64,000 bases of DNA from assembly GCA_020002185.1 (NCBI GenBank), contig CM034542.1:59876097-59940096 (forward strand), in the 5' to 3' direction. Position 1 is the first letter of the stretch. Each line of letters begins with the position of its first letter. Under the pieces are notes generated by a model that searched no databases, was not told the origin of the DNA, and worked only from the letters and a program-made list of their open reading frames with translations. Below, in pieces: positions 1 to 11,643 of the stretch. The translations under genes were made by a program, and so were the position numbers. The stretch is from Paraescarpia echinospica. Taxonomy: Eukaryota; Annelida; Polychaeta; Sabellida; Siboglinidae.

Positions 1-141
1 TGCATACACTTTTGGTAGTTGCCCCATTGCATACACTTCTTGTAGGTGCCCCATTGCATACACTTCTTGTATGTGCCCCATTACATACACTTCTTGTAGG
101 CACCCAATTGCATACACTTGTAGGCGCCTCATTGCGTACAC
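1..141 (+). repeat. 27-bp minisatellite made of duplicated 3' splice sites of the ACAT exon
   Basis: Five to six head-to-tail copies begin with tgcatacac at 1, 28, 55, 82, 109 and a shortened last copy at 133. Each unit reads roughly cacttcttgtag followed by gtgccccattgcata. The last copy is the real intron-exon junction: ttgtag at 118-123 is the acceptor, and the bases after it encode Ala-Pro-His-Cys-Val-His. The upstream copies therefore repeat the splice acceptor and the first coding bases of the exon. The 27-bp period would keep frame, but the TAG of every downstream acceptor reads as an in-frame stop if an upstream copy is used. The copy near 70 has lost the AG (tgtatg). The array continues off the left edge. 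Confidence 0.9.
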
Positions 142-241
142 CTTCGGAATGGGACCAAGATGGGAGACTTGGGCCTGGTTGACACGTGTGTACACGACGG
201 ACTAACAGATGTCTTCAACAACTACCACATGGGAATCACAG
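124..241 (+). CDS. ACAT2: Acetyl-CoA acetyltransferase, cytosolic (ACAT2-like), internal exon
   Basis: This exon encodes part of a type II thiolase, which condenses two acetyl-CoA to acetoacetyl-CoA, the first step of the mevalonate pathway; the animal ACAT2 type is cytosolic. Visible motifs are [15 protein letters not shown], then [15 protein letters not shown], which match the region after the N-terminal catalytic Cys in ACAT2 proteins. The start is fixed by the acceptor ttgtag (118-123), with TAG an immediate upstream in-frame stop, and the exon opens in phase 0. It ends after aca g with donor gtaatt at 242. The split codon (g + cg) is completed by the next exon at 4145. The catalytic-Cys exon lies upstream of the window. 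No lesion is seen. Confidence 0.93.
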
Positions 242-2184
242 GTAATTACCTACATACTTCAGAATGACAGTACTTTATACTGACATGCTCGTAGGTCAGT
301 GTCAACAATATACTTTCTAATGAGAGCATTGTGTCCAGCAGCTCGCAAATCTGTAAGAGCTTTTCTAGAATAAAAATTCCAATAATCCAAAAACAGTAGG
401 ATGTGGGTGGGTCTTGAATAATAATAATAATAATAATCATATTAATTTTATATATAAAGTCATATCCATTAATGTTTGCAGTGCTGCACATAAAGCTAAT
501 ACATAAAAAATACAAATAAAACACTTTTAAAAGAAAAATACATAACTTAAAATAATACAAATCAGTAGATTTAAGCAAATTCTTGTTTATGTATAAATAT
601 ATAAATAAGTAGATTGTTTACTTAAGATAAAATTAATATAAATATCACTCCACCAAGCTAATTCATCAATAAGAAATATAAACATCAAATAGTTAAAACA
701 AGTAAAGCAGGGTTTACATGGATTAGGAGAAGATCTGTGTAATTACACCAGAAACCAATTGGGGAGGAATAATTTTGTTGAAATTTCATTCCCGGCTGAA
801 TTTTTTACAATATTTGGCTTTCTATTCAGTGGATTGGTAATGTATAAATTGTGCCATTGTCTTTTGGGATACCATTTGGGGGAGTCAATTCTGACCAGTC
901 GGTTTGGGATTATTGGCATTATTTTATATTTATGAATGAATGGTCATATACAATGGAAATCTCTCTTTTCTTCAACAATAACAGATATAATATAGTGGCT
1001 AATTATTAAATTATACATGTAAACAATTGTTGAAAATGGGCAAGAAGAAGTGTAACACTTATAATCACTAGCCCTGTTACACTATTGTACAACACAGTAC
1101 AAATTTACACGTTGAGGCATCACCAAGAATACATAAGACATAATTATCATGTTCAAATCATGGCAGGCCGTTTGTAAAAAAGAAGTTAAAGTACTAATAT
1201 AACCCTAACGCCAGTCATTTTGTCAAAAATATCTACTCATTAAATACATAACTATTCAATAATTATTATTTGTTTTTAAAAAGATCAGTAGAAAATGTAT
1301 AAAGCAGACATGAAGAGATTACATCACACATTAAATGAATAGTACTGTTAGAATAAAAACTTAAAAACCGAGTACATGATTACATTAATGGCCATTACAT
1401 GTACATTGTTTACAACTTCCTGGTTGTTACAAGATGTAGGAGTATTTTTAAATTATTATTATTGTCATCACTAATTTATCATATATCTTGATTGAAATTG
1501 TATTATTGTACGATGTACAATTACCAATCTGACAGCAAAAAAAGTATCTACTTAGAGCACAATTAAATGTGCTAGTTGCAATGCACCAGGGGGGAGTAAA
1601 CAAGTTTACACCACAACTCTCCCTGTTTCCAACTAACCATTAATATGAATACATACAATTTATATATATGTATATGTCTATATATATATATGTATGTATG
1701 TAAATATATAATTATGTATGTATATATATATATGGATGTATGTAAATATATAATTATATATATATATGGCCCGCTATTCAAACATAGTTCAAAGGATACA
1801 CACAACTAATACACCATACAATGTGTAATAAATGTGGGCTAACAATGTGTAAAAATGTTTGCATTAGCATGAGTGACTAATGTTTGAGAATTATTTTCGT
1901 CTAAATACTATTTAATCGATACCATGCAATACGCAACTTTCCGTGTGCATTAAACTGAGAAAGAAACATGCTTTATTCTAATATTAAATATTATGTGCAA
2001 GCCTTAAAATAGATTACATATGTATGCGTGAATGATTTATGTGTAATCCCAGTCAAATTTTGCAGAGACCGTTTCCCTTGTTTTTTTAAGGGAACAAATT
2101 TATCGACAATGCACTCAATTTCACTCTTTAAGATATTCTAGCATTCGGTTGCTGTCTTATTCTTCAGTGTGTTATTCTCTGTGA
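242..2184. other. Intron, AT-rich unique sequence
   Basis: This is the first part of the intron after the 124-241 exon. It is AT-rich with stop codons in all frames and no recognisable coding segment. It holds a short ATA run near 418-436 and a TA/TATG microsatellite at about 1655-1775. I see no regulatory site that I can support. Confidence 0.7.
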
Positions 2185-10200: not shown

Positions 10201-11480
10201 GCTGTTGTAAAGTGAGGTTTGTTGTTGTGTGACTTGCTGTGCTGTTGTAAAGAGAGGTTTGATGTAGTGTGTCTTGCTGTGCTGTTGTAAAGTGAGGTTT
10301 GATGTAGTGTGACTTGCTGTGCTGTTGTAAAGTGAGGTTTGATGTAGTGTGACTTGCCGTGCTGTTGTAAATTGAGGTTTGTTGTTGTGTGACTTGCTGT
10401 GCTGTTGTAAAGTGAGGTTTGTTGTTGTGTGACTTGTTGTGCTGGTGTAAAGTGAGGTTTGATGTAGTGTGATTGCTGTGCTGTTGTAAAGTGAGGTTTG
10501 TTGTAGTGTGACTTGCTGTGCTGATGTAATGTGAGTTTTGATGTAGTGTGACTTGCTGTGCTGATGTAAAGTGAGGTTTGATGTAGTATGACTTGCTGTG
10601 CTGATGTAAAGTGAGGTTTGATGTAGTGTGACTTGCTGTGCTGATGTAAAGTGAGGTTTGATGTAGTGTGACTTGCTGTGCTGATGTAAAGTGAGGTTTG
10701 ATGTAGTGTGACTTGCTGTGCTGATGTAAAGTGAGGTTTGATGTAGTGTGACTTGCTGTGCTGTTGTAAAGTGAGGTTTGATGTAGTGTGACTTGCTGTG
10801 CTGATGTAAAGTGAGGTTTGATGTAGTGTGACTTGCTGTGCTGTTGTAAAGAGAGGTTTGATGTAGTGTGAATTGCTGTGCTGTTGTAAAGTGAGGTTTG
10901 ATGTTGTGTGACTTGCTGTGCTGTTGTAAAGAGAGGTTTGATGTAGTGTGTCTTGCTGTGCTGTTGTAAAGTGAGGTTTGATGTAGTGTGACTTGCTGTG
11001 CTGTTGTAAAGTGAGGTTTGATGTAGTGTGACTTGCCGTGCTGTTGTAAATTGAGGTTTGTTGTTGTGTGACTTGCTGTGCTGTTGTAAAGTGAGGTTTG
11101 TTGTTGTGTGACTTGTTGTGCTGGTGTAAAGTGAGGTTTGATGTAGTGTGATTGCTGTGCTGTTGTAAAGTGAGGTTTGTTGTAGTGTGACTTGCTGTGC
11201 TGATGTAATGTGAGTTTTGATGTAGTGTGACTTGCTGTGCTGATGTAAAGTGAGGTTTGATGTAGTATGACTTGCTGTGCTGATGTAAAGTGAGGTTTGA
11301 TGTAGTGTGACTTGCTGTGCTGATGTAAAGTGAGGTTTGATGTAATGTGACTTTCTGTGCTGATGTAAAGTGAGGTTTGATGTAGTGTGACTTGCTGTGT
11401 TGTTGTAAAGTGAGGTTAGATGTAGTGTGTCTTGCTGTGTTGTTGTAAAGTGAGGTTTGATGTAGTGTAATTATCGGTGT
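7225..11480 (+). repeat. 40-bp minisatellite, about 106 units, filling the intron to the acceptor
   Basis: The unit reads gtgaggtttgatgtagtgtg, then acttgctgtgctgttgtaaa (40 bp). Common variants are gttata for gatgta, aattgc for acttgc and gatgta for gttgta. A 679-bp stretch is duplicated: the rare deletion variant gtgtgattgctg recurs at 10467 and near 11146 with the same flanking variants. With the 34-bp array it makes the whole 4.5-kb intron tandem repeat. The last copies degrade into the real acceptor (gtgtgttgtcag, 11477-11488). Open frames through the array are artefacts of stop-free units, not proteins. Confidence 0.95.
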
Positions 11481-11488
11481 GTTGTCAG

Positions 11489-11643
11489 GTATCAATGACG
11501 GGGCTGCGGCGGTGGTCATCATGACTCAGCAGGAGGCAGACAAGAGGGGACTCAATGCCATGGCAAAGATTGTTTCTTGGGCTCATGTCGGCGTTGACCC
11601 AAAAATAATGGGCATTGCTCCGGTGAAAGCTACGAGACAGGCG
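11489..11643 (+). CDS. ACAT2: ACAT2-like acetyl-CoA acetyltransferase, internal exon
   Basis: This exon encodes [12 protein letters not shown], then [20 protein letters not shown] and [12 protein letters not shown]. It covers the loop domain end and the start of the C-terminal thiolase half. The first Gly codon is split with g6986. The acceptor is gtgttgtcag. The exon ends in phase 0 after gcg at 11643 with donor gtgcgt. In ACAT2 proteins the next residues should be the AGW...NEAF segment, about 37 codons, but the next visible exon resumes only after it. The exon is intact, with ordinary codon use. Confidence 0.95.

Follow-up and report, generated by a model that had tools for sequence, protein, structure and literature searches.

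Minisatellite arrays whose units span an intron/exon boundary have been described in amphioxus under the name of mirages, and the authors of the globin study suggested that introns may be gained through them (PMC3087553, PMC3902484). Support by reverse transcription polymerase chain reaction (RT-PCR) for correct splicing in spite of the decoy sites is reported there only. The present analysis concerns arrays of this kind in ACAT2, a gene lying in a 64-kb stretch of DNA, here called the window (C12:59876097-59940096 of a 1.084-Gb animal assembly), and in further genes of the same assembly. In these genes large arrays sit preferentially at splice junctions. The phenomenon is of a known kind; its rate and the size of the arrays are new, and so, probably, is a lophotrochozoan host.

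As in the mirages of amphioxus, the units span the 5' or the 3' exon boundary, both boundary types being affected here (10/120 acceptors, 7/107 donors). The copy adjacent to the exon is the real splice site, many other units keep their AG or GT (nine thiolase arrays were scanned), and the junction copy departs from the array consensus, as is also described for boundary copies in amphioxus. The unit lengths overlap, those reported for amphioxus Adh3 being 10-72 bp and those found here 20-77 bp. The arrays differ in size from those of amphioxus BflGb6, for which 3-6 units are reported, whereas arrays here reach about 100 units and a length of 7.4 kb (ACAA2 intron 2). Unlike in the amphioxus reports, rate and excess were measured, in one assembly known from DNA alone. 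The hosts of mirages are cephalochordates in these reports, whereas the present host is probably lophotrochozoan, a placement for which the following scores give a lead. A muscle myosin exon compared with the PDB gave 126 bits for scallop, 119 for squid, 114-117 for most chains of myosin-7 (human cardiac) and 85-102 for chains that we take to be insect.

Other systems share single traits with these arrays. The minisatellite of human IFI6 (6-16), the subject of a 1995 paper in Nucleic Acids Research, reportedly carries multiple splice donors, and the extra donors are said to be used; there, as here, a minisatellite repeats the donor at an exon end, but IFI6 is a single human gene. In primate segmental duplications, internal tandem repeats at exon-intron boundaries are said to create novel introns (PMC2812944). 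Boundary minisatellites change gene structure in both cases, but here it is an ancient intron that has become longer. In the Rogers model, cited in PMC3087553, introns are gained when genomic segments are duplicated in tandem; a potato case is also on record. The duplication of a segment bearing AG or GT is common to that model and to the present arrays, but ACAT2 intron 5 occupies an ancient position. Among the titles and opening lines of abstracts listed from an open-licence library, no paper was found that describes arrays of this type beyond amphioxus and primates; a paper on intronic minisatellites and alternative splicing in C. elegans was among those listed (PMC4039745).

Junction arrays of ACAT2

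The gene was identified from 178 translated residues, whose top PDB match was acetyl-CoA acetyltransferase 2 (233 bits). Exons were mapped by tblastn and a custom spliced alignment with human ACAT2, and arrays were called throughout with Tandem Repeats Finder (TRF). The spliced alignment gave 8 exons across 38 kb, some upstream exons lying beyond the window.

Three arrays, here A, B and C, lie across the exon 4 acceptor, the exon 5 donor and the exon 6 donor, respectively (Table 1). Array A begins 198 bp before the window (true start -198) and reaches 18 bp into exon 4; its last unit is the functional acceptor, and AG is intact in 8/11 scanned units. Arrays B and C have 32 bp within exon 5 and 21 bp within exon 6; the functional donor is the first unit in both, with GT intact in 28/35 and 6/8 scanned units. 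When the junction windows of A, B and C were aligned with their own arrays, scores of 26, 36 and 26 were obtained, against maxima of 16, 15 and 14 in 200 shuffles each, which bears out an earlier note, made from the letters of the window, in which these arrays were regarded as junction duplications. In all three the exon side codes for protein and is conserved with human ACAT2, which makes the junctions the source of the arrays and not the reverse; the direction of origin is readable, as had been claimed. Intron 5 (after RK|G) is in phase 1, and ACAT1 (KK|G) and ACAA2 (KK|G) have an intron at the same place and in the same phase. Array B has therefore lengthened an ancient intron, in agreement with the view that such arrays enlarge existing introns.

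The claim that a fourth array, D, merges into the exon 7 acceptor did not hold. The array ends 20 bp short of the acceptor, and its unit matched the start of exon 7 with a score of 8 (null mean 7.6), 139 of 300 shuffles being equal or better. The 60-bp alignment at this acceptor consists mostly of array D itself. An origin of array D at this junction was rejected, its unit resembling the exon no more than shuffled sequence does.

Arrays at the exon edges of further genes

A search for the thiolase family gave 4 further loci, picked blind to arrays, which we take to be ACAT1, ACAA2, ACAA1 and HADHB from alignment to human proteins. The five thiolase genes, including ACAT2, have 46 introns and 41 arrays of period at least 15; doubtful terminal exons (ACAA1 2, HADHB 3, ACAT1 1) were dropped before the count. 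By TRF, 8/41 arrays enter an exon by at least 3 bp: those of ACAT2 introns 3, 5 and 6, ACAT1 intron 5, ACAA2 intron 2, both ends of ACAA2 intron 7, and HADHB intron 7. HADHB intron 8 is a ninth straddler by sequence (score 24, null maximum 17), which TRF reported as low-copy and which really has about 10 shorter units. The 7.4-kb array of ACAA2 intron 2 repeats the start of exon 3 and has AG intact in 88/88 scanned units, and the array at the acceptor of ACAA2 intron 7 in just 4/21.

An array of the same 35-bp unit in about 3 copies was observed in ACAT1 introns 5 and 6 (15617-15731 and 20296-20410 of the joined stretch L017-L020). It probably belongs to a dispersed element. Its score with the acceptor after intron 6 was 17, against 14 for the best of 300 shuffles.

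Exons of two further families were sampled. The myosin head gave 76 matches, of which 59 were taken batchwise: an initial 20 scattered over the loci, then two batches from the matches left on the list. One stretch, L048, chosen for its long open frame, was excluded from every count. Adaptin gave 69 matches, among them 37 copies of one dispersed exon and 1 intronless match, and 20 of the other 31 were sampled. Three additional adaptin stretches with short flanks, outside the counts, had no array by eye. Straddling arrays were found at the acceptors of L062, L101 and L103, at the donors of L067, L085 and L086, and on both exon sides of L088; in adaptin, the repeated exon starts encode DCEDSNPLI (L088) and MDSPMFDFIE (L101). 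Arrays near the exon but with no shared exon sequence (L058, L080, L081, L090) were not scored as straddling. Junction arrays also occur far from chromosome ends (C12:16.8 and 15.1 Mb, C9:12.3 Mb, C1:35.6 and 62.7 Mb, C6:47.1 Mb). In one myosin gene (C2:77.777-77.781 Mb) donor-derived arrays occupy two consecutive introns (L085/L042 and L086/L085), their far ends reaching the stretch of the adjacent exon.

Together, 135 myosin and adaptin edges and 92 thiolase edges make 227, from 31 genes or clusters. Arrays were counted by their exon-proximal ends when they had a period of at least 15, a score of at least 120 and at least 80 bp visible. Straddling arrays were present at 17/227 edges (acceptors 10/120, donors 7/107), and a straddler scored by TRF in 10/31 genes or clusters; when ACAT2 is left out, the values are 14/213 and 9/30, so the phenomenon recurs beyond ACAT2. 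Array starts were enriched at exon borders, with 15 at 3-60 bp inside the exon (12.8 kb) against 8 at +20..+150 (29.4 kb; binomial p 6e-4); the lack of enrichment by which the earlier note would have been refuted did not appear in this sample. Two further ends at -3..+20, at the acceptors of ACAT2 intron 3 and HADHB intron 8, straddle by sequence and complete the 17. For arrays of score at least 200 the counts were 15 inside the exon and 5 in the intron zone (p 5e-5), and for the myosin and adaptin edges by themselves they were 8 and 3 (p 0.005). The density ratio was 4.1 (gene bootstrap 2.2-9.2) and, in the absence of ACAT2, 4.6 (13 against 6; bootstrap 2.2-12.8).

A test independent of TRF gave a similar picture. 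The last 24 exonic bases found their best match in their own intron, among introns of the same kind, at 10/217 edges, where chance predicts 2.0; L034, included in this number, is a marginal case. Deeper in the exon the number of such edges fell to 6, 5 and 3.

Origin of the junction excess

We consider it probable that these are minisatellites of mirage type, which arose by chance duplications spanning a junction and then grew as arrays, the junction excess being due in part to base composition and its remainder more likely to growth or retention than to targeted seeding. A segment of about 20-80 bp with a splice junction within it by chance would first have been duplicated in tandem. Growth and homogenisation would then have taken place on the intron side, by slippage or unequal exchange, while the exon-side unit would be held by coding and splicing constraint. 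The true splice sites are adjoined by about 8 to 88 near-copies, and exon definition presumably keeps splicing on the exon-adjacent site in spite of many intact decoys. A decoy, if used, would in most cases put the message out of frame, so splicing must rely for the most part on the site beside the exon. The outcome would be the enlargement of existing introns.

An excess at junctions would be expected if GC-rich segments are preferred as units, exon edges being GC-rich within AT-rich intron surroundings, and base composition partly bears this out. In the thiolase genes the GC content was 36.6% in non-array intron 40-mers, 44.5% in interior array units (score at least 200, n=15) and 46.2% in junction windows, and a GC-tilt model predicted a junction excess of about 1.9-fold (1.5-2.3). 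The leftover excess of about two-fold, whatever its cause, would be ascribed to preferential growth or retention more readily than to targeted seeding. In the full-length thiolase genes, TRF found straddling in 8/21 arrays with at least 4 copies and in 0/20 with fewer (HADHB intron 8, among the 20, straddles by sequence). The lack of a junction excess in low-copy arrays points to growth or retention no less than to seeding, and would favour them over targeted founding.

Several points weigh against this explanation or against the excess on which it is built. The bootstrap probability of a ratio of 1.9 or less is 0.009, or 0.013 in the absence of ACAT2, so GC leaves part of the excess unaccounted for. 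The sample is of modest size (31 genes or clusters), and myosin and adaptin splice edges were picked automatically, 23 of 158 having been skipped. No straddling array was found in the first 20 myosin exons, nor in the 9 introns of ACAA1, and in four straddlers the exonic part is just 5-9 bp long. Small arrays from the sampled exons gave 1 straddling against 7 intronic, and those of middle size did the same, a size contrast that is confounded by short flanks. Under a null in which introns are collapsed to their pre-array length and the founding unit is placed randomly, 4.35 (sd 1.8) of the 41 thiolase arrays are expected to straddle and 8 are seen, which is a weak excess.

The alternative that survives best, though we regard it as unlikely, is that the duplications are founded by a process targeting splice junctions, such as splicing-linked breaks or template switching, R-loops or exon chromatin. 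An excess above the GC prediction and the fact that acceptors and donors are alike hit, the L088 exon being flanked on both sides, would be consistent with it. Overlaps and unit lengths, read off manually, argue in another direction. The exon share of the unit ranges from 0.10 to 0.80 (mean 0.44; Kolmogorov-Smirnov test against uniform, p 0.18), and unit periods fall into the classes modulo 3 as 4/6/7, ignoring the frame. This spread speaks against breakage exactly at the splice site, and the periods, blind to frame, give no hint of frame selection. As the position of the breakpoints varies freely with respect to the splice site, GC by itself would yield roughly half of the fold excess, low-copy arrays and the smaller arrays of the sampled exons (with the reservation on flanks given above) do not favour junctions, and the collapsed-intron null leaves a weak excess, the targeting process that the earlier note had read from recurrence in one gene is not supported.

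Chance is a less probable alternative still. The region is dense in arrays, 68 of them (period at least 9) covering 47.8 kb (34%) of the 139 kb around ACAT2, and contig C12 runs on for just 15 kb past the far edge of the window; in such a near-terminal region junctions might be hit by coincidence, and the collapsed-intron null already expects about half of the straddlers seen. Yet like structures occur deep inside chromosomes, and the excess persists when ACAT2 is removed. Near-terminal position as the entire explanation was rejected because of the junction arrays in chromosome interiors.

It is very improbable that selection keeps or expands the arrays for useful splice sites or for array RNA, through fidelity, alternative splicing or regulation. 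The junction arrays are the large ones and many sites are intact, as in ACAA2 intron 2, but conservation of the splice dinucleotides barely exceeds that of the columns beside them (about 0.94 and 0.91, mean of nine thiolase arrays), AG has been lost from most units of the array at the acceptor of ACAA2 intron 7, and unit lengths take no account of frame. Mobile elements of the introner type, or the birth of introns from tandemly duplicated AGGT segments, can hardly be credited, for although units bear AG|G or AG|GT and the 35-bp array of ACAT1 recurs in the manner of a dispersed element and matches the next acceptor above shuffle level, junction-array units match the adjoining exon and differ mutually by eye, so that introners were rejected for want of a common family (each array resembling its own exon, as far as tested) and intron gain for want of a new position in ACAT2 intron 5, the sole mirage intron dated, whose position is common to the paralogues; no search was aimed at young introns gained elsewhere in the genome.

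It is tempting to go further and to regard junctions as true hot spots for minisatellite birth or growth beyond base composition, junction duplication as a main engine of intron lengthening in the lineage, and its origin or persistence as independent in lophotrochozoans and cephalochordates; this wider proposition is a tentative one, and we doubt it more than we believe it.

Other features of the window and outlook

Table 1. Mapped exons and tandem arrays of the ACAT2 region (window coordinates)
Feature	Position	Strand	Method
Junction array A, 27-bp units across exon 4 acceptor 123/124	1..141	+	TRF, junction alignment
ACAT2 exon 4 (...NYHMGIT)	124..241	+	tblastn / spliced alignment
ACAT2 exon 5, donor 4288/4289	4145..4288	+	spliced alignment
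Junction array B, ~35 units x 40 bp across exon 5 donor	4257..5644	+	TRF, junction alignment
ACAT2 exon 6, donor 6986/6987	6870..6986	+	spliced alignment
Junction array C, ~8 units x 34 bp across exon 6 donor	6966..7229	+	TRF, junction alignment
Intronic array D, ~106 units x 40 bp	7237..11468	+	TRF
ACAT2 exon 7 (INDGAAAVV...), acceptor 11488/11489	11489..11643	+	tblastn, spliced alignment
Intronic array, 38 bp, before N gap	11820-13856	+	TRF
Intronic array, 42 bp, after N gap	14857-15804	+	TRF
ACAT2 last exon, stop codon included	16531..16701	+	tblastn, spliced alignment

The donor of exon 7 (11643) was set from tblastn and the sequence, the aligner having extended the exon to 11760. No exon was found for human residues 305-341; an assembly gap of 1000 N (13857-14856) stands at its place and probably hides it. 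Translated in frame, units of the 42-bp array that follows the gap can give ..AGMEVA.., which perhaps resembles the beginning of this hidden thiolase exon; judged from this reading, the array may be a further junction array around the hidden exon.

Reading frames resembling pieces of non-LTR (long terminal repeat) retrotransposons (endonuclease and reverse transcriptase) were recognised by eye at 2164-2682, 21451-22071 and 50738-52547, in an ACAT2 intron and downstream of the gene. Arrays of 49 bp and 34 bp are paired twice (54675-55656 with 55764-56034, and 56947-59789 with 59897-62104), and their arrangement suggests that a segment carrying both was probably duplicated. A scan of the window against Rfam at gathering thresholds gave zero matches, and a search for COX1, which would have pointed to a mitochondrial contig, likewise found nothing. 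The last 600 bases of contig C12 showed no simple telomere repeat by eye, and the contig probably stops short of the real chromosome end.

Two observations were made in the sampled families. The dispersed adaptin exon (model positions 280 to mostly 330-346) accounts for 37/69 adaptin matches, with similar scores, on chromosomes and small contigs (e.g. C14:36999254-36999454 and C12:21438196-21438396), as if captured by a mobile element. The excluded stretch L048 (C5:36076800-36079600) holds a muscle myosin heavy chain with a duplicated exon, both copies ending in ..LEAYGNAKT.RNNNSSRF. These are probably mutually exclusive exons, and one of them matches scallop myosin at 30/31 residues.

With straddling arrays at 17/227 edges, what had been an anecdote from a few lancelet genes becomes a rate that lends itself to a genome-wide test. 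The lengthening of introns and the choice among near-identical splice sites are open questions. Because so many near-copies lie beside each true site, RNA sequencing alone could show how strict exon definition is.

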